Both the position numbers and the translations under genes were made by a program. 64,000 nt of DNA. Origin: Halobacterium salinarum DSM 3754. Lineage in GTDB: Archaea > Halobacteriota > Halobacteria > Halobacteriales > Halobacteriaceae. The notes below the pieces were generated by a model. The model saw only the letters and a program-made list of their open reading frames with translations, did not search any database and was not told where the DNA came from. Position 1 is the first letter of the stretch; every line of letters starts with the position of its first letter. Where the stretch lies: NCBI RefSeq assembly GCF_008124605.1, contig NZ_VRYN01000001.1:148772-212771 (forward strand). The letters run 5' to 3'. Positions 17,069 through 50,227 of this stretch are shown here, in pieces.

Positions 17069-17171
17069 GTCAGCGGGACAGCTATCGGTTCCCGTCGGCG
17101 TTCAAGTATGCTTCGAGACCGAGCGAGCGCACAGCCGACGGCAGGCTATCGGACACAACGACGGTGAGAAA

Positions 17172-17229
17172 TGCGCTGGCTGGGATTTGAACCCAGGTTG
17201 TGACCATGGCAAGGTCACGTGATACCACT
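17172..17229 (-). repeat. Distal attachment-site copy (tRNA-Gly 3' portion)
   Basis: 58 bases match positions 24733-24790, differing at two sites. The differences form one T-stem base pair (G-C in the intact tRNA, T-A here), so pairing is kept. Read on the minus strand and extended to 17242, the sequence almost makes a 71-base tRNA: the acceptor pairs 6 of 7, but the D-stem is broken. It is therefore an attachment scar rather than a working tRNA gene. Confidence 0.9.
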
Positions 17230-17231
17230 CC

Positions 17232-17243
17232 GGCGCAAGCGCC
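17232..17243. repeat. GC dyad inside the left element end
   Basis: GGCGC-AA-GCGCC lies 2 bases inside the distal attachment copy and runs into AGCGCCTGAA (17238-17247). The same 10 bases recur within a similar dyad at the other end (24713-24731). This could be an integrase or accessory-protein binding site. Confidence 0.5.
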
Positions 17244-17400: not shown

Positions 17401-17778
17401 CTAAATAACGTGTGAGAGACTCCTTACAATACCCATTATACAAAGTACGACCCCGACGCCGAGGAGAAGTCCAGTGATAATGCGGAGTCGGTTCGTACTT
17501 TCACGCTTTCCAAGTAGCTGTGTGAATCCATCTATACCACCCGGAATCAGGAGAATTCCGCCCAGAATAAGAGACGGTTCAGGATTGAGTGGAAGGGACC
17601 ATACCAACGTAACCAGGACGGTAAGAATTCCACTTGTGTACATACCAGTACATCGGGCACACAGTCCGAAGTATCGCCCACGATAGCTCAGTGACCTATC
17701 TGGTCGGGAATGACAGAGCGGATATGGTCGAAGGAACTTATTTGAGAGGCGAAAAACGCTGTCGAGAACTTCAGCCAT
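17401..17778 (-). CDS. DUF2085-type membrane protein
   Basis: 125 residues. The N-terminal half has CHSRPDRSLSYRGRYFGLCARCTGMY, a Cys/His pattern typical of the small DUF2085 membrane proteins. It is followed by three hydrophobic segments and the polar turn GGIDGFTQLLGKRESTNRLR. No activity is known for the family; the conserved cysteines may bind metal. The ATG at 17778 shares one base with the preceding stop (TGATG), so it is translationally coupled. Last gene of the zinc-ribbon operon. Confidence 0.75.
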   Translation of the reverse strand: MAEVLDSVFRLSNKFLRPYPLCHSRPDRSLSYRGRYFGLCARCTGMYTSGILTVLVTLVWSLPLNPEPSLILGGILLIPGGIDGFTQLLGKRESTNRLRIITGLLLGVGVVLCIMGIVRSLSHVI

Positions 17779-18203
17779 CAATCTCCGAGTTCCGTCCCAC
17801 AATCTATGCAGTAGTTATTCGTCTGCTCGTTTTGCCAGCCGCAAGACGAACATATCCTTTTGCGCGAGGAGTTGACGGTTTGTGTATTAGTACTTGATTT
17901 AGAAGCTGAGTCCAGATTATTCAGCCACTCTAACCCAGATTCAGTGAGAATCGCCCAGAGAGGTACTGAAACAAGCCCGCCAAACACCATAAACGAAAGC
18001 CAATTGCTGTAAGGGACAAACAGCATACTGGCAATACCACCAGCGAAGAACGCACCAATCACAATAACCCAAGCAGATACAGTGTTTATCTTCTCATGGA
18101 GAGGACCGTCATCATCATAGCTCGTTTCAATTTTCTCCCCAGTCTCATCCTCCTCTGATGTGATGTCTCCTCCGTCTTTCTTGGAGTTGTTTCTATCACT
18201 CAT
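17778..18203 (-). CDS. Two-helix membrane protein with C-terminal zinc ribbon
   Basis: 141 residues. An acidic N-terminus (about 1-37) is followed by two transmembrane helices (about 43-63 and 68-88) and a linker. It ends in a zinc ribbon, CSSCGWQNEQTNNYCIDCG, with spacing C-x2-C-x10-C-x2-C. The ribbon is closely similar to those of the two upstream proteins. It overlaps the upstream gene by 8 bases and the downstream one by one base. AT-rich codon choice marks it as foreign to this chromosome. Function unknown. Confidence 0.78.
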   Translation of the reverse strand: MSDRNNSKKDGGDITSEEDETGEKIETSYDDDGPLHEKINTVSAWVIVIGAFFAGGIASMLFVPYSNWLSFMVFGGLVSVPLWAILTESGLEWLNNLDSASKSSTNTQTVNSSRKRICSSCGWQNEQTNNYCIDCGTELGD

Positions 18204-18699
18204 TAGATGGTTTCAATTCCTTACCACAGTCGTTACAAAAATTATTTGATTGGAGGTTCTGCCAACCACAATTTTGGCAGATAGCGTTCCGCTTTGATGA
18301 CTTTGAACCACTCTCCTGTTGTTGGCCTGCCACTCCGCCAGATTGCTGTTTAAATTCCTTCATAAACTGAAGGCCAGGTTTGGTCATATGTGCAGAAGCA
18401 ACCAGAGTTATAATAACTCCAAATATAACTGCCCCAATAGTACTGAAACCAGCAAGACCAAAAACACCTGCACCAATAAGTGCAGAAATCAAACCGCTAC
18501 CAAGAATAAATGCATATCTTTTGTAATCCTCCATTTCTTGTATATCCTCCTCCATCTTCTCCCATTTCGAATTATAATATTTTTCTCGGACTTCCTCTAT
18601 TGCGTCTGCCGTCTCCGAGATTCCTCTGTCTGAGTTCCTAATGCGCTCAGCTTCTTCCTCAAACTTTTCTCTGCGGTCTTTATTGGTGTTCTCAGTCAT
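18196..18699 (-). CDS. Coiled-coil membrane protein with C-terminal zinc ribbon
   Basis: 167 residues. A charged helical N-terminus (about 1-58, likely coiled coil: EKFEEEAERIRNSDRG) leads to two transmembrane helices (about 64-108), a polar linker and a zinc ribbon CQNCGWQNLQSNNFCNDCG near the C-terminus. The ATG at 18699 (MTENTNKDRREKF) overlaps the upstream stop region by 8 bases. Same architecture as the next gene downstream, suggesting duplication and divergence within the operon. Confidence 0.78.
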   Translation of the reverse strand: MTENTNKDRREKFEEEAERIRNSDRGISETADAIEEVREKYYNSKWEKMEEDIQEMEDYKRYAFILGSGLISALIGAGVFGLAGFSTIGAVIFGVIITLVASAHMTKPGLQFMKEFKQQSGGVAGQQQESGSKSSKRNAICQNCGWQNLQSNNFCNDCGKELKPSNE

Positions 18700-18928
18700 C
18701 AGATTCCCCAGAGTCAGGCTTAAATGAGAAACCGCAGTCTCCACAGTGGTTTGCCTCCGAAGGATTCTGCATACCACAGTCCGGACAGATTCGTTTCGGC
18801 TTGGAACTACTGTTGTCAGAAACCGTAATCTGTTGTTGCTGTTGCTGCTTAGAGCCACAGCACCCGACCACCCCGACGCCGAGGAGTGCTAATAGGGCTG
18901 TTGTAGCTCCTGTAATCTCAATAAACAT
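18692..18928 (-). CDS. Small membrane-anchored zinc-ribbon protein
   Basis: 78 residues. One N-terminal hydrophobic helix (about 6-24) ends in GVVGCCGS, which could be a membrane anchor or a lipidated cysteine. A Gln run and Ser-rich linker follow, then a zinc ribbon CPDCGMQNPSEANHCGDCG. First gene of the four-gene operon, with a TATA-like motif 33 bases upstream. Function unknown. Confidence 0.75.
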   Translation of the reverse strand: MFIEITGATTALLALLGVGVVGCCGSKQQQQQQITVSDNSSSKPKRICPDCGMQNPSEANHCGDCGFSFKPDSGESDD

Positions 18929-19041: not shown

Positions 19042-19158
19042 TCAGGGCGTCATGTTTTGTTCGGCCTCCTGTTCATAGACGCGGTCGGGGTCTGGTTCCT
19101 TCTCTGGGTCTTCGTCGCCAATATCGCCGAGGTGTGCGGGGTCGCGTTCGAGCGCCAT
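19042..19158 (-). CDS. Very acidic 38-residue microprotein
   Basis: An open frame of 38 codons, MALERDPAHLGDIGDEDP at the start and EAEQNMTP at the end, whose ATG overlaps the stop of the upstream SWIM-type gene (TAATG). The composition (about one third Asp/Glu) is that of a haloarchaeal protein rather than random sequence, and the overlap gives it a way to be translated. No homologue is recognised. Confidence 0.5.
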   Translation of the reverse strand: MALERDPAHLGDIGDEDPEKEPDPDRVYEQEAEQNMTP

Positions 19159-19655
19159 TACTGTCCCTCCATGTACTCGAAACAATCGAAGCACGGTAGG
19201 CTATCGCCGTTCGAGCCATCACACCAGTCGTTATCGCACTCTCCCCGTTTCGACGCATCGAGTGGCGGAGAATCATCGTCGGATTCGGCGACAATACCAC
19301 CGTCTGCTGCGGCACGAACAGGATTGGTTGAGGTATGCGTGCCGAGCTGGGGGTCGATGGCGTCGGCGTTCGTCCACTCGGGAATGAGCGTTTCACCAGT
19401 CGCGTAACGTACACGGCGTTCGTGCTTACACGAGTCGTCGGCGGCGAGGTTATGGCGGGCGTCCGGACAGTCACACGCGCCCTCACGAGCGTCTACGAGG
19501 TACTCCGAACCGCTTTCGGATACGACGAGGTAGAGGTCGTCTGCGTCGTTGACTCTCCCTGTGTCGGGGAGAACGGTCATTTTCTCGGTGAGCGCGCGGA
19601 TTGCACGCTTCGGTAGGTCGGTGGGATTTTCACCCGTCAGATTGTAGGCTGTCAT
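19158..19655 (-). CDS. SWIM-type zinc-finger protein of the element
   Basis: 165 residues. A SWIM-like cluster C61-x-C63-x12-C76-x-H78 lies in GACDCPDARHNLAADDSCKH, after a strand typical of SWIM domains (YLVVSESGSEYLVDA). A second cysteine set (C140, C145, C155, C158) lies at the C-terminus. SWIM domains bind nucleic acid or protein, and such proteins are frequent in haloarchaeal plasmids and proviruses. The start MTAYNLTGENPTDLP at 19655 is preferred to the longer frame. Two hairpins lie directly upstream. Confidence 0.72.
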   Translation of the reverse strand: MTAYNLTGENPTDLPKRAIRALTEKMTVLPDTGRVNDADDLYLVVSESGSEYLVDAREGACDCPDARHNLAADDSCKHERRVRYATGETLIPEWTNADAIDPQLGTHTSTNPVRAAADGGIVAESDDDSPPLDASKRGECDNDWCDGSNGDSLPCFDCFEYMEGQ

Positions 19656-19656
19656 G

Positions 19657-19697
19657 CTTCTGAGTCCCAGAAGCGCGGTCGTGTGTACCAGCACACG
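19657..19697 (-). promoter_or_regulatory. Two adjacent inverted repeats before the SWIM gene
   Basis: CTTCTG-AGTCC-CAGAAG (19657-19673) and CGTGTG-TACCAG-CACACG (19680-19697) are perfect 6-bp dyads directly before the SWIM-gene start. They could be protein-binding operators or hairpins in the transcript leader. Confidence 0.4.
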
Positions 19698-19771
19698 GCC
19701 ATTTCTGCGATGGCGTGCCGCGCTTCCTACTCACAAGTATATGCGCCATGCACTTAATACTTCCCGTATAT

Positions 19772-19783
19772 GGGAACGTTCCC
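19772..19783. promoter_or_regulatory. Perfect palindrome GGGAACGTTCCC in the divergent promoter region
   Basis: A 12-bp perfect palindrome flanked by AT-rich TTCCCGTATAT and TAATACGG, lying between the divergently transcribed SWIM gene and the gene at 19827. The position suits an operator for an element-encoded repressor. Confidence 0.45.
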
Positions 19784-19826
19784 TAATACGGACACCACTA
19801 AGTGTCGCACGCACGTAGGTTGGCGT

Positions 19827-20057
19827 ATGGCGAGACGCGCCCTGCTAACCGACCGAGAGCGTGAACTCATCGAGGGCGGAGACGACGTTGATGAAGACCT
19901 CCGCTATCAAGCCATCTCCCGAGTTCGACGGAAGATTAACGAAGAACTCACGACCGATGTCGAAGTCCTACAGGAGCAGCACCCACAGTTGCTTGAAGAA
20001 CTCCGAGAAGTAGTGTGTAGCCAGCCAAGTGAACAACCCGAGGATTCGAACGCATAG
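19827..20057 (+). CDS. Small haloarchaeal protein of the provirus/plasmid type
   Basis: 76 residues starting MARRALLTDRERELIEGG, helical and charged, with the segment RYQAISRVRRKINEELTTDV and a C-terminal helix QHPQLLEELREVVC. Proteins of this kind are common in haloarchaeal genomes and mobile elements, with no assigned function. The arrangement of basic helices would allow DNA binding; that is inference. Divergent from the SWIM gene. Confidence 0.7.
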   Translation: MARRALLTDRERELIEGGDDVDEDLRYQAISRVRRKINEELTTDVEVLQEQHPQLLEELREVVCSQPSEQPEDSNA

Positions 20058-24728: not shown

Positions 24729-24732
24729 GAAG

Positions 24733-24803
24733 TGCGCTGGCGGGGATTTGAACCCCGGTTGTGACCATGGCAAGGTCACGTGATACCACTACACTACCAG
24801 CGC
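24733..24803 (-). tRNA. tRNA-Gly (anticodon GCC)
   Basis: 71 bases without encoded CCA. The acceptor GCGCTGG pairs with CCAGCGC, discriminator A. The anticodon stem TGACC/GGTCA closes loop TTGCCAT with GCC at 34-36. The T-arm is CGGGG-TTCAAAT-CCCCG. A TATA box lies 30 bases upstream. It is the integration target; its 3' part (24733-24790) is shared with the distal repeat and was probably supplied by the element. Confidence 0.96.
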
Positions 24804-45144: not shown

Positions 45145-46050
45145 ATGGGGATTCGACCGCCACCCGGCGAGCGCAGCCCGGCGGCAGTGCTGTCGTTTGG
45201 CGTCGTGAACCTGGACAAGCCACCGGGGCCGTCGGCCCACCAGGTGTCGGCGTGGATTCGAGACCTCGTGGGCGTGGAGAAGGCCGCACACGCCGGCACG
45301 CTCGATCCGAAGGTCACGGGCTGTCTGCCCGTGTTGACCGGGACCGCGACCCGGATCGCACCCGCGCTCCTGGAGGGGTTCAAGGAGTACGTCGCCGTCC
45401 TGGAGCTGCACGACGACCCGCCGCGCATCCTCCCGGACGTGATCGAGGCGTTCACCGGCGAGATCTACCAGAAGCCGCCGAAGAAATCCGCGGTCGCGCG
45501 CCGCCTGCGCACCCGCACGGTCTACGACCTCGACGTGCTCGACGTGGACGGCCGCCAGGTCCTGCTCCGGATCCGGTGTGAGTCGGGCACGTACATCCGG
45601 AAGCTCTGCCACGACATCGGCCGCGCGCTCGGCACGAACGCCCACATGGGGCATCTGCGCCGCAGCGCCACCACGCCGTTCGACGACACCGACCTCGTCA
45701 CGCTGCACGACCTCGCGGACGCGGTGGCGTGGCTGCGCGACACCGACGACACCGAGCCGCCGGACGCACCCGCGGACGCGCTGCGCGCAGCGGTCCAGCC
45801 CGCCGAGCGCGCGCTCACGCACCTGCCGCGGCTCACCATCGCCGACTCGGCAGCCCACGAGGTCGCCACGGGTGCGCCGGTGTACGCGCCGGGCGTCATC
45901 GACACCACGGCCCTGCCGACACCGCCGGCGGATGGGGCGCTGGTGGCGTGTTACACCGCAGGCGGGACGGCGGTCTGCCTCGGTCGGCTGGTCGGCGATC
46001 CGGACGCGGACGCCGGCGTGGTCGTTGCCCTCGAACGCGTGCTCGTGTAG
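45145..46050 (+). CDS. cbf5: tRNA/rRNA pseudouridine synthase Cbf5 (TruB family)
   Basis: Catalytic subunit of H/ACA guide RNPs, also makes pseudouridine 55 in tRNA. 301 residues. Catalytic Asp54 in AGTLDPKVTGCLPV, substrate-loop residues CESGTYIRKLCHDIG, and a C-terminal PUA domain (about 215-301). ATG at 45145 directly follows cmk. Confidence 0.95.
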   Translation: MGIRPPPGERSPAAVLSFGVVNLDKPPGPSAHQVSAWIRDLVGVEKAAHAGTLDPKVTGCLPVLTGTATRIAPALLEGFKEYVAVLELHDDPPRILPDVIEAFTGEIYQKPPKKSAVARRLRTRTVYDLDVLDVDGRQVLLRIRCESGTYIRKLCHDIGRALGTNAHMGHLRRSATTPFDDTDLVTLHDLADAVAWLRDTDDTEPPDAPADALRAAVQPAERALTHLPRLTIADSAAHEVATGAPVYAPGVIDTTALPTPPADGALVACYTAGGTAVCLGRLVGDPDADAGVVVALERVLV

Positions 46051-46070
46051 CCCGCCGCCGAAACGAAGGT

Positions 46071-46078
46071 CTTAATGG
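46071..46078 (+). promoter_or_regulatory. TATA box of tRNA-Pro
   Basis: CTTAATGG centred about 29 bases upstream of the tRNA start at 46103. Confidence 0.6.
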
Positions 46079-46102
46079 TGGACCGCGCCTCCACCCAGAT
46101 AC

Positions 46103-46173
46103 GGGACCGTGGGGTAGCGGTATCCTCGGCGCATGGGGTGCGTCGGACTCGAGTTCGAATCTCGACGGTCCCA
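46103..46173 (+). tRNA. tRNA-Pro (anticodon GGG)
   Basis: 71 bases. Acceptor GGGACCG pairs with CGGTCCC, discriminator A, no encoded CCA. The anticodon stem GGCGC/GCGTC closes loop ATGGGGT with GGG at 34-36. The T-arm is CTCGAG-type with loop TTCGAAT. Downstream sequence drops in GC for about 2.4 kb. Confidence 0.93.
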
Positions 46174-46283
46174 CTCAAAATAAGGTCGGATTCCGGTACC
46201 GGCGTTCTTACCGGGTCCGCAGTTCAGTTTTCGCGTAGCTACGACGGTACACAAGTCGCGTCTTTATCAACGCGGTGGTCGGC

Positions 46284-46403
46284 GTGAGCGCCCCCACCGC
46301 AGACACCTCATATCTCGGAGAGGTCTGTGAATACTGCGGGTTCCACATCGACCACGAAGACAAACGCTACCCCGCCCTCGACAACGGGAGGTGCCAGCCC
46401 TGA
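46284..46403 (+). CDS. Possible 39-residue zinc-finger microprotein
   Basis: Open frame from GTG with C15-x2-C18-x2-H21-x2-H24 and C37 (VCEYCGFHIDHED ... GRCQP). A TATA-like CTTTATCA at 46262-46269 lies about 20 bases upstream, near the leaderless distance. Haloarchaea have many such small zinc proteins, but this could be a fragment. Confidence 0.42.
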   Translation: MSAPTADTSYLGEVCEYCGFHIDHEDKRYPALDNGRCQP

Positions 46404-46656
46404 CGACGGGCTGTCTCGTCTTAATCCCGCTCAATCAGTGAGAGAGAGGTTTTACGCTGGAATTCTACTGTCCTCAAAATCTTACGCTGTTCTCGAATAG
46501 TTCGCCACCACAAGAGAACTTTCTCCAACGAGTTCGTATCTCACAGAACGATCTACTTGATCGAATAGTTCTGTGTCCCTTCCTGCGCCTCGGAAGCAGT
46601 CAACAAAGCCGCGACCCTCAAACCCAGAGGGTAACGCTTCGCACAAACGGCGACCA
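46404..46656. other. 253-base spacer without a clear gene
   Basis: Lower GC than the chromosome. Contains an 11-base direct repeat TCGAATAGTTC (46493-46503 and 46561-46571) and two near copies of TTACGCTG. A 67-codon minus-strand frame overlaps the end of the pentapeptide gene but shows no motif. Confidence 0.4.
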
Positions 46657-48411
46657 TCATCGTGTCGCTCGTCGCCCGAACACAAACACTAGCAGGGCGA
46701 GGAGAACCACGCCAGCAGAGGTCTCGGAAATGGCGAGAATCTGTCCGATTTGGCTCGCTGGCCGAAAGTCGCCGTACCCGAGCGTCGTGAACGTCATGGT
46801 CGAGAAGTACATCGCGTCGAAGAGCGAAACCGGTGGCAACGACTCAGTCGGGGCTTGAGCTGTAAGGTCCGGCTGAATTAAGTCGAACCAGTAGTAGAGG
46901 CCGCCAAAAGAAAGCACGATAAGCGCAACCGTGGCGAGAACACGGTACGGGCTCTCCCCGTAGCGGGTGACGACATTCGACAGCCATGAAAGTGCCCACG
47001 AGACGGGTTGCCGACTGTTCCCCTCGCCTTCGCCGCTTGAGAGGCGCTTTCGCTCCATGTCCTTGCGCCACGTGAAACAGGTGCTTGCGAGCGACGAGGC
47101 GGCGTTATCTTCGGCAAGCGATTCGAGCTTCTGGTACACCGTGGCGGCACGGGTGACATTGCTGATTTCGTCCTCGTCCGCTTCACAGTGTGGTTCGGTA
47201 CGCGGGTCGTAGATGACGGTCTGTGGCTCAGCAAAATCCACCTTCGGTAGCCTGTTGAGATATCCGACCACTCGTCGGTGAGATACCCACCTGTTACCTC
47301 GTTCGACGAACGTGGTGGCGTGGCTGATGTGGGCGTCCCCGAATATTGCCCCATGGAGGCGGGCGTCCCTGAAGTCCGCTCCGTAGAGCTGGGTACGGGT
47401 GAGGACAGCATTTTCGAGGTCCGCACCACTGAGATCTGCGTCCCGGAGATCCGCGCCCTCAAGCTCGGTGTTCCTCAGATAGCTGTTCGAGAGATTAGCG
47501 TCCTGAAAAACCGCCTCATCAAGTTCGACACCCATGAAATTCACCATGTCGTCGAATCTCGTGCTATTTAGGCTGGCGCTGTTGAAGGTCACTCCGCCGT
47601 TGAAGGCCGCATTCCGGAATGCCGCCCAGCCGTCGAAGGTCGCACTCTCGAAGAGCGCTTCGTCTCTGAAATTCACGCCATTGAAATCCGCACCGTCGTC
47701 GAAGGTCGCATCCCCGAAGATCGCCGTATCGTCGAAAGTCGCGGATTCGAAGATCGCCCTATCGTCAAAGGTCGCATCCCCGAAGAACGCCTTGTCGTCG
47801 AAGGTCGCACCCCCGAAAGACGCCGTATCGTCGAAGGTCGCATGCCAGAAAGACGCCGTATCGTCGAAGGTCGCATTTCCGAAGCTCACCACGCTCCGAA
47901 ACACCACCTCTCGAAACTGGACACGGTCTCGAAAAGAGACGCCGTGTACGTCACAATCACCCTCAACCACGGCCCCAGCCGCGTCAAGCTGCGCGTCTAC
48001 CCCCCGGATATCCCACTTCATCTCTTCAATCCGGGCGTGTCGCAGATCGATGGCCGCACCGTCTCCAATCTGTTCCCGGTCCAGATTGAGATTCTCGAAC
48101 GTCGCGTCGATGAACCGCGCCGGTCGTCGTCCCTTACCCTCAACTACCTCGCGCTCACCCTGAACGATGGCGATGAACTCCTCAACGGGGTTGATTCCAT
48201 TCGGCCGTTTCTCTTTTCGGAGATGAAAGATGCACCTATCTTCTCCGTCGTGTTCCTCAACGGCCTCGTGAGGGCAGCGCCACACCGTCTGGCCGTCGAC
48301 CTCCTCCAAAATCTCGGCGTCATACTCTGGGTCGACCTGGCACTCTGCATTGTGTTCGCTCTCCCACGTTTCCGGATTGAGTGTGTAGCTGCACCGGCTC
48401 GCTTCTTTCAT
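46657..48411 (-). CDS. Pentapeptide-repeat protein fused to a potassium-channel pore
   Basis: 584 residues in three parts. The N-terminal Cys/His cluster (C7, C24, C46-x-H48, H54, C60-x2-H63) may bind zinc. About 160-375 is a pentapeptide-repeat solenoid of A(T/N)F-D-D type units (repeats such as ATFDDTASF) changing to classic ADLRDADLSGADLEN. A linker and one helix (about 480-505) lead to a pore loop with the filter TTLGYGDF (542-549) and the last helix. The 2TM pore should be a tetrameric potassium channel; the solenoid may be a cytoplasmic gate or sensor. Lower GC than its surroundings suggests transfer. Confidence 0.88.
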   Translation of the reverse strand: MKEASRCSYTLNPETWESEHNAECQVDPEYDAEILEEVDGQTVWRCPHEAVEEHDGEDRCIFHLRKEKRPNGINPVEEFIAIVQGEREVVEGKGRRPARFIDATFENLNLDREQIGDGAAIDLRHARIEEMKWDIRGVDAQLDAAGAVVEGDCDVHGVSFRDRVQFREVVFRSVVSFGNATFDDTASFWHATFDDTASFGGATFDDKAFFGDATFDDRAIFESATFDDTAIFGDATFDDGADFNGVNFRDEALFESATFDGWAAFRNAAFNGGVTFNSASLNSTRFDDMVNFMGVELDEAVFQDANLSNSYLRNTELEGADLRDADLSGADLENAVLTRTQLYGADFRDARLHGAIFGDAHISHATTFVERGNRWVSHRRVVGYLNRLPKVDFAEPQTVIYDPRTEPHCEADEDEISNVTRAATVYQKLESLAEDNAASSLASTCFTWRKDMERKRLSSGEGEGNSRQPVSWALSWLSNVVTRYGESPYRVLATVALIVLSFGGLYYWFDLIQPDLTAQAPTESLPPVSLFDAMYFSTMTFTTLGYGDFRPASQIGQILAISETSAGVVLLALLVFVFGRRATR

Positions 48412-48616
48412 CCAACTGCCGGATCGTTGTAGCAGTGCTCCATAACGATGTTCCCTCAGGACAAGTGGATATATCCTCAGAAGCGCCTATCTGAATTCTA
48501 GTTGAAGCGAAGAGATTTTGCGACCGCTTCGCGTACCGAGTGTGTCCTCTGTCTGTATCAATTCGGCCGTTTCAGCTTCAAGGAGTCGTCTGAATGAAGA
48601 AATAGCGCTAGGGGCG

Positions 48617-50227
48617 TCAGTCGTCGGCTTCCAGTTCCGGGTTCGTCGTGGCGGGTCGTGACGTGTCGACGTCCAGTTCGTAGTCGTCGCTGTCGACGGT
48701 GAAGCCAGTGAGGACGTCCTGGAGGGTGTCCGCGCGATCAACGAGGCGCGTGACGCCGTCGGTGACATCCGACAGCGACGCGGTCTGCTGTTGGGCGGCG
48801 GCGGAGACGCTGGCGGCCTCGGAGCTGTTCTGCTCGCTGATGTCCTCGATCTCCTCGATCATCGAAACGGTGGTGTCGGCGGACGCCGCCTGTGCGTCGG
48901 TCGCGTCGTCGATCTGTTGGACGGCTTCGTTGACATCGGTGACGTGGTCGCCGATCTCTTCGAGCGCGGTCAGCGCGTTTTCGACGGTTTCGGTGCCCGA
49001 GGAGACGGTGGCGGCCATCTGCTCGGAGTCGTCGACGACCGACTGCGTGGACGACAGGAGGTTGTCCACGAGCGTCTCGATCTCGTCGGTTGCCTCGTTG
49101 GTCTCCTCGGCGAGTTCCTTGACCTCCGCGGCGACGACGGCGAACCCGTCGCCGTCCTGGTCGGCGCGCGCCGCTTCGATGCTGGCGTTCAGCGCCAGCA
49201 GGTGGGTTTGGTCGGTGATGTCGTTGATGAGATCGACCACGCGGCGGATCTCCTGGGCTTCGGCGGCAAGCGCGTTGGCCTCCGAGACGACGGCCTCGGT
49301 CTCGGATTGGATGTCGGTCATCTGTGTGACCGCCGCGGCGGCGTCGTCGCTGCCCTGGCGGCCGCGGTCGGCGGCTTGGTCGGAGACGTCGGCGACCTGG
49401 CTGGCCGAGGCGGCGACTTCTTCGACGGCGCCGGACAGCGATTGGAGTTCGTCCGTTGCGTCCGCGAGGCGGGTGTGTTCGCGGTCGGTGCCGGCCGAGA
49501 TCTCCTGGACGGATTCGGCGACCTGTTCGCTTGCGGCTTCGATTTCGTCGACGCTGGCGTGTATGTCGCGGCTGTTGTCGGCGACGTCGCCGGCGAACTC
49601 GCGGGTGCGCGCAACCATCTCCTCGAAGGCGGCGATCATCTCGTTGAACGCCTGCCCGACTTCGGTCATCGCGTCGCTGTCGCTGCTGGAGTTCGCGCGC
49701 ACCGTGAGGTCGCCGCTGGCTGCTTTCTCCATGACCGAACTGTATTCGGAGGCTTTCTTCGAGAGCTGTGCGTCGCGTTCGGCGGCGCGCTCTTGGAGCT
49801 TGGCGGCCAGCGTCTCGGCTTCCTCGCGGGCGTCTTGGGCTTCGGCTTTGGCTTCCTGTGCCTGCGCGCGTTGCTCGTCGGCGCGGCGTTTGGCTTGTTC
49901 GGCGTCCTTGCGGCGGCGGTGGGCGCGTGCGTTTGACGTTTTCAGGTCTTCAACGATCGAGATCGTGCCGGTGGACGAGATGGCGACGACGCCGATGAGT
50001 ACGGCCAGCAGGGACGTGCTGAACGCGTCCATGACGGGGCCGGCGACGCCGATCCATTCGAGCGCGACGACCCCCGTCCAGAGGAAGCCGAGCCCGCAGA
50101 TGTACGTGTAGTTCACCCAGAAGCCCGCGATGTCAGTGGTGTCGCGGTAGGTCTGGATGCCGACGCCGATGGCGGCGACGTAGGCGGCGACGGCGATGAC
50201 GTCGAACAGCACGATGAGGTGGTTCAT
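48617..50227 (-). CDS. Halobacterial transducer (methyl-accepting chemotaxis-type) with membrane-embedded sensor part
   Basis: 536 residues. Three hydrophobic helices (about 3-25, 38-60, 65-88) with no sizeable extracellular domain. A charged coiled coil (about 100-155), one HAMP-like segment (about 160-215) and the cytoplasmic signalling domain follow, whose hairpin tip is ITDQTHLLALNASIEAARA (337-355). It should signal to CheA/CheW. With no ligand domain it probably senses through a membrane partner or a membrane property; the 4-base overlap with the preceding membrane-protein gene supports a partner. Confidence 0.92.
   Translation of the reverse strand: MNHLIVLFDVIAVAAYVAAIGVGIQTYRDTTDIAGFWVNYTYICGLGFLWTGVVALEWIGVAGPVMDAFSTSLLAVLIGVVAISSTGTISIVEDLKTSNARAHRRRKDAEQAKRRADEQRAQAQEAKAEAQDAREEAETLAAKLQERAAERDAQLSKKASEYSSVMEKAASGDLTVRANSSSDSDAMTEVGQAFNEMIAAFEEMVARTREFAGDVADNSRDIHASVDEIEAASEQVAESVQEISAGTDREHTRLADATDELQSLSGAVEEVAASASQVADVSDQAADRGRQGSDDAAAAVTQMTDIQSETEAVVSEANALAAEAQEIRRVVDLINDITDQTHLLALNASIEAARADQDGDGFAVVAAEVKELAEETNEATDEIETLVDNLLSSTQSVVDDSEQMAATVSSGTETVENALTALEEIGDHVTDVNEAVQQIDDATDAQAASADTTVSMIEEIEDISEQNSSEAASVSAAAQQQTASLSDVTDGVTRLVDRADTLQDVLTGFTVDSDDYELDVDTSRPATTNPELEADD

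Follow-up and report, generated by a model that had tools for sequence, protein, structure and literature searches.

A recurring haloarchaeal cargo block of membrane zinc-ribbon proteins and a DUF2085 protein, with a possible role in excluding competing mobile DNA

What does a compact set of four membrane-protein genes, low in guanine and cytosine (GC), do for the mobile element that carries it? The question is raised by a locus of Halobacterium salinarum DSM 3754 in a 64,000-nucleotide stretch of contig NZ_VRYN01000001.1 (positions 148,772 to 212,771; hereafter, the window), where four minus-strand genes, called here A, B, C and D, span positions 17401–18928 of the window (Table 1). The products of A, B and C carry membrane helices followed by a zinc ribbon, and that of D is a DUF2085 membrane protein. 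The same block is present in 10 of approximately 532 haloarchaeal genomes, namely in the window and in nine scattered others, and measures approximately 1.0–1.5 kb. We read it as a recurring piece of cargo whose products form a predicted membrane complex, and we tentatively favour, with a probability of about one in three, an exclusion or defence device directed against competing mobile DNA.

Recurrence and mobility of the block

In all ten genomes that contain gene A, it is followed on the same strand by one or two genes of the B/C type and then by a DUF2085 gene. The first-pass annotation, made from the sequence of the window alone, had asked whether the four genes recur together in other elements, and in other genomes they do. 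Minor variations exist: in Halobellus, B and C form a fused pair, and in Halorutilus salinus the middle gene has an internal stop, beyond which the ribbon can still be read in frame (L002:7565-8000). The junction between A and the next gene is an 8-base overlap in 5/10 loci, an 11-base overlap in 2/10 and a gap of 1, 2 or 45 bases in the remaining three. The GC content of the block is 42–51% in all ten loci, while the adjoining integrases have 53–56%. The third codon position is the most divergent one in all eight gene pairs compared between relatives. Because the gene order recurs in ten genomes and the third-position excess is seen in 8/8 pairs, the block is not a product of chance. No shared promoter was recognised by eye in the ten stretches upstream of A, where no motif search was run.

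These counts derive from a profile of seven A proteins. Among 391 haloarchaeal genomes, with at most 14 candidates scored per genome, seven contain an A match with E ≤1.8e-36; the next nine rows (9.1e-11 to 3.3e-6) belong, judged by position, to the B/C genes of these seven loci, and the background begins at 4.3e-6. Family-level searches (cut-off E up to 1e-12), which overlap with the search of 391 genomes and bring the total to approximately 532, found A in 1/26, 5/170, 2/146, 0/125 and 1/28 genomes of five families, to which G217 of another family is added. Strong DUF2085 matches (E ≤1.4e-22) occur in eight genomes, seven of which contain A. In the eighth, which has DUF2085 but not A (G179, loci L066/L038), the gene is located beside a bPH_3 protein and near a tRNA-Lys; an integrase related to that of locus L102 is found approximately 3 kb from this DUF2085 gene.

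Within the window, successive genes of the block overlap by 8, 8 and 1 bases, and its GC content is 45.9%, compared to 54.6% in the remainder of the element and 70.3% in the left flank. By hydropathy, A has one helix, B and C have two close ones each, and D has hydrophobic stretches. D matches DUF2085 (PF09858) with E 2.9e-26 and 92.1 bits versus a cut-off of 25. On all these points, i.e. the overlaps, the composition unlike that of the host, three proteins with transmembrane helices and a ribbon, and a DUF2085-like fourth protein, the first-pass annotation was correct. The ribbons of A, B and C are C-terminal and, as it had stated, have the same spacing (C-x2-C-x10-C-x2-C). "Near-identical" overstated their likeness (by eye, B and C agree at 12/18 positions, and A and B at 9/18), and the motif given there was one residue off, as four and not five residues separate its two asparagines.

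The block is carried by an element of approximately 7.6 kb, which is bounded by tRNA-Gly(gcc) and its 88% copy. The host genes that flank this site are 7.9 kb apart here versus 0.6–3.1 kb in 12/12 congeneric genomes (distances computed from the listed gene places). Each of the seven congeneric loci scanned contains one tRNA-Gly(gcc), and in a comparison with two relatives both window flanks align to this site. Together, the spacing in the congeners, the tRNA and the flank alignment indicate a real insertion, which of the 13 genomes only this one has at this site. The integrase, the pair of attachment sites and the contrast of an occupied with an empty site thus confirm the earlier suggestion that the four genes are the cargo of a mobile element.

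In the seven block loci first compared, an integrase is the only other gene common to most (5/7). In the full set, 6/10 loci have an integrase of the same family no more than 0.4 kb from the block (the window, Halobellus, G280, G078, G201 and G483); in the window it adjoins the block across the attachment site, and in G483 it is split. A 45-residue fragment of another integrase family directly follows the block in Halorutilus, an integrase of that other family is found 2.3 kb from the block in G428, and the 19 kb surrounding the G273 and G408 blocks yielded no integrase. The tRNAs near the blocks vary: Gly(gcc), Gly(tcc), Leu(gag), Leu(tag) (twice) and Tyr(gta). Attachment repeats were recognised in G078 (54 bp, tRNA-Leu) and in Halorutilus (a 22-bp tandem at the end of tRNA-Tyr), and were not found for the other elements tried. 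Plasmid records searched with A, B and D yielded a single, distant DUF2085 of bacterial origin and no copy of the block; in viral contigs, scanned with a few exact peptide patterns, A, B and D had no match. Of the integrase family itself, at least eight genomes (G010, G022, G032, G051, G067, G090, G113 and G115) contain two members side by side, in opposite directions and within approximately 1.1 kb.

The proximity of an integrase suggests that the block could serve the element itself: its complex would hold the circular form, the integrase or a replication protein at the membrane, or would control integration and excision. The short distance to a same-family integrase in six loci, which in the window reaches across the attachment site, is consistent with this, as is the frequent binding of nucleic acids or proteins by zinc ribbons, described in a passage of PMC3581485. 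However, no replication gene is common to the loci, and the block is maintained next to the split integrase of G483 and the other-family fragment of Halorutilus, and where none was found nearby (G273 and G408). Furthermore, only three of 30 loci with a same-family integrase contain the cassette; for the other 27, a script flagged no downstream ribbon gene, the three left unread being the window's own locus and the two other cassette loci. Such a maintenance module is a possible but rather doubtful explanation.

Architecture of the four proteins

Protein A scores 18.1 bits against the Pfam family Zn_Ribbon_1 (PF13240), below the cut-off of 25, and other zinc-ribbon families likewise stay under their own curated cut-offs; its closest solved relatives are the ribosomal eL40 ribbons. 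A protein search returned 96 A-type proteins, of which 88 were aligned (the window's own cluster P0053 and P0141–P0148 were left out). The Cys-Cys pair, the glutamine run and the ribbon are conserved at the protein level in this alignment, and the run is 4–11 residues long in the 80/88 rows that display the full pattern. Codon slippage was considered as the origin of the run and rejected, as CAA and CAG are mixed across the ten loci. The segment preceding the helix contains on average 0.94 acidic and 0.30 basic residues (80 rows), and the linker preceding the ribbon 3.35 and 2.2, i.e. it is acidic overall. The possibility that A is a lipoprotein (Val-Gly-Cys-Cys) was set aside because the pre-helix segment, with few charges and more acidic than basic residues, is unlike a signal peptide. 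We infer that the ribbons are located inside the cell; owing to the acidic linker of A, there is no clear positive-inside signal, and the charge pattern of A favours cytoplasmic ribbons weakly.

B and C consist of a charged N-terminal part, two helices and the ribbon, which scores 27.7 (B) and 27.6 (C) bits against PF13240, above the cut-off in both cases. A tree of the middle proteins joins the window's C to the second G280 protein and the N-terminal half of the Halobellus fusion (support 96/96), and places B apart from C, with metagenomic proteins (93/94). This placement means that the B/C split predates the divergence of the blocks, and that B and C are old paralogues derived from an early duplication. 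The underlying alignment has 13 rows (the fused copy, the broken copy and nine protein hits were left out), and in the search behind it only the 7998 candidates with most words in common were scored. An hhalign comparison of the A profile (88 rows) with the middle profile (13 rows) gives a probability of 98.1% and E 9e-14 over 41 columns, which include the glutamine run, a Lys-Arg pair and the ribbon. Because four-cysteine ribbons are common, the kinship of A with B/C rests on this entire shared tail, and by profile comparison the tails of A and B/C are homologous. The first-pass annotation had proposed that the complex was built by duplication, a view that ribbons of unrelated families would have countered; the tree and the profile comparison agree with duplication and with a single related tail. 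B and C were also considered as degenerate TM2 proteins, and this was rejected: hhalign gives 59% with just 13 ribbon columns aligned. A TM2 domain (PF05154) has no Pfam match in B or C at E up to 1. A predicted model of B was set aside owing to its low confidence (predicted local distance difference test score, pLDDT, of 61.4; predicted template modelling score of 0.26).

D is predicted (mean pLDDT 93.3) as a protein with three membrane helices. The model contains a helix (residues 2–16), two strands (29–32 and 35–40) and helices 41–60, 66–88 and 96–124. Of the 52 hits, 50 were aligned (P0001, the window's own cluster, P0032 and P0039 are named as left out). C22 and H23, which precede the hairpin, are at least 90% conserved; C40 and C43, at the start of the first membrane helix, are invariant, as are R28, R42, D83, S94, N96 and R99. 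In a treble-clef site, ligand pairs flank a hairpin and the second pair is located at the start of a helix. The model and the alignment suggest that the Cys and His residues of D may make up a metal site of treble-clef type that faces the cytoplasm. A sequence search found no solved relative of D (best E 0.25), and fold comparison returned no match above background; a known transporter fold was considered for D and not adopted, its structural matches being at background level. If D and the ribbons bind or move zinc or another metal, the block could be a metal-handling module, which we consider improbable. A DUF2085 protein recorded under the name Halobacterium salinarum (P0003) is 69% identical to D.

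DUF2085 genes of haloarchaea are also found outside the block. In 21 of 22 chromosomal loci (L040–L061, drawn from 52 weaker DUF2085 matches), regular expressions find zinc ribbons together with a TM2 signature in a neighbouring open reading frame (ORF), and in one such protein tested Pfam confirmed TM2 and a double ribbon. No such ORF was found in 29 other archaeal and bacterial loci, where a multi-heme cytochrome-like hit was discounted. Haloarchaeal DUF2085 proteins thus appear to be tied to membrane-anchored ribbons in two settings. Among the matches listed in the literature search, there is none that describes the chromosomal DUF2085–TM2 pair, and the function of TM2 is unknown according to a passage in PMC3581485.

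The chromosomal pair suggests another explanation, in which the block is a captured stress or envelope sensor, i.e. a mobile DUF2085–TM2 pair that senses the state of the membrane or its redox state and benefits the host in a way unrelated to mobile DNA. The 21/22 chromosomal loci are in line with such an origin, and changes in redox or metal state could be sensed by the Cys-Cys pair of A and by the ribbons, which are rich in cysteine. On the other hand, the D proteins of the block group in the DUF2085 tree with a methanogen protein, and the two chromosomal haloarchaeal proteins in that tree form a distant branch, and B and C are not recognisable TM2 proteins. A captured sensor appears unlikely.

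A tentative role in exclusion or defence

The prediction that A–D are bound into one complex derives from the coupling of their genes. In the arrangement that we propose, D would be the core and A, B and C would surround it, with their ribbons held in the cytoplasm and that of A on a glutamine-rich tether. The ribbons would bind nucleic acid entering the cell, or one of its handling proteins, and this would block or abort a rival virus or plasmid as it establishes itself. Protection from rivals would pay for carrying the block. Exclusion or defence is preferred because the block is sporadic and self-contained, is kept beside a split integrase (G483) and has no evident use in replication. In Halobellus, a candidate defence gene (DUF6884/PDC-M57A, E 1.7e-33) is located approximately 2 kb from the block.

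Several observations weigh against an exclusion or defence role. The first-pass annotation had suggested a defence, exclusion or metal-related function, and this is so far unsupported: PADLOC-DB 2.0.0 contains no credible match for the four proteins (best E 0.0097 for A, a ribbon-level match to Cas12, and 0.026 for B, with C and D unmatched). The block contains no partner enzyme or nuclease. Ten hand-chosen proteins neighbouring the block yielded a single strong PADLOC candidate, and ten more, likewise hand-chosen, from loci where an integrase of the same family lacks the cassette yielded only weak matches (best E 1.3e-6). The Halorutilus copy of the block is probably incomplete, and some haloarchaeal CPXCG proteins have no bound zinc, as described in a passage of PMC11241148. 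A defence-island argument from the neighbouring genes was also considered and found to be mostly empty. Among the matches listed in the literature search, there is no description of the four-gene block; one listed paper names DUF2085 and another PF09858. Archaeal dark-matter islands are, according to a passage in PMC4158269, enriched in small membrane proteins.

An archaeal exclusion or immune apparatus not yet described, with DUF2085 as its membrane core, would be a more far-reaching and quite unlikely extension of the exclusion role. It would exist in a chromosomal form, with a TM2 double-ribbon protein, and in a form spread by integrases, in which duplicated, tethered ribbons would capture nucleic acid as it enters, on the inner side of the membrane. 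DUF2085 has no function in Pfam's description and is linked here to membrane-anchored zinc ribbons, and the three to four small genes could be transferred together into a laboratory haloarchaeon. If the block does act in exclusion or defence, it would represent an archaeal conflict system of a new, membrane-based kind.

The other genes of the element are listed in Table 1. Two of its proteins have relatives in the Halobellus locus (L001:6111-6689, PHROG 17897, 31% identity; L001:5778-6005, PHROG 26393, 62%). Elsewhere in the window, positions 46000–49000 form a second region of lower GC content (58–59%) beside a tRNA-Pro (46103–46174). A 584-residue ORF at 46657–48411 contains pentapeptide-like repeats, and its C-terminal part resembles, by eye, a two-helix ion channel.

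Table 1. Positions of the block genes, their motifs and other features of the element in the window
Feature	Position	Strand	Remarks
Gene A, 78 residues	18692..18928	-	One membrane helix, Gly-Cys-Cys, six Gln, acidic linker, four-cysteine ribbon
Glutamine run of A, residues 28–33	18830..18847	-	Mixed CAA/CAG codons; position from sequence
Ribbon of A, residues 48–65	18734..18787	-	
Gene B, 167 residues	18196..18699	-	Two membrane helices, C-terminal ribbon
Ribbon of B, residues 141–158	18226..18279	-	
Gene C, 141 residues	17778..18203	-	Two membrane helices, C-terminal ribbon; paralogue of B
Ribbon of C, residues 118–135	17799..17852	-	
Gene D, 125 residues	17401..17778	-	DUF2085 membrane protein
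Cys-His ... Cys-x2-Cys stretch of D, residues 22–43	17650..17715	-	Conserved; putative metal site
Left attachment site	17168..17243	-	88% copy of tRNA-Gly(gcc) with surroundings
Right attachment site	24732..24803	-	tRNA-Gly(gcc)
Tyrosine integrase of the element, 377 residues	23464..24597	-	Best phage match 45% identical
Weakly primase-like protein, 550 residues	21544..23196	-	PHROG 16345, E 4.5e-9; Pfam below cut-off
Element protein, PHROG 17897	19158..19694	-	Relative in Halobellus locus
Element protein, PHROG 26393	19770..20057	+	Relative in Halobellus locus

Relation to known systems

The integrase of the element is 44–45% identical to those of haloarchaeal tailed viruses (VOLN27B and the HRTV group) in the 15 best of 49 records. 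However, no match for A or D was found in the 50,697 records of the phage collection. The four-cysteine ribbon is shared with short ribbons such as Zn_Ribbon_1/DZR, eL40 and the small haloarchaeal CPXCG proteins; unlike in these, the ribbons of the block are fused to membrane helices, and A has a conserved glutamine run.

D retains the Cys-His ... Cys-x2-Cys pattern of the DUF2085 family, to which Pfam assigns no function, and here a member of this family is the terminal gene of a cassette of ribbon proteins. The chromosomal DUF2085–TM2 pair resembles the block in that DUF2085 adjoins a membrane-anchored zinc-ribbon protein. However, its DUF2085 belongs to a branch distant from D, and its ribbons are N-terminal to TM2 (in the one protein tested), whereas those of the block are C-terminal to unrelated-looking helices.
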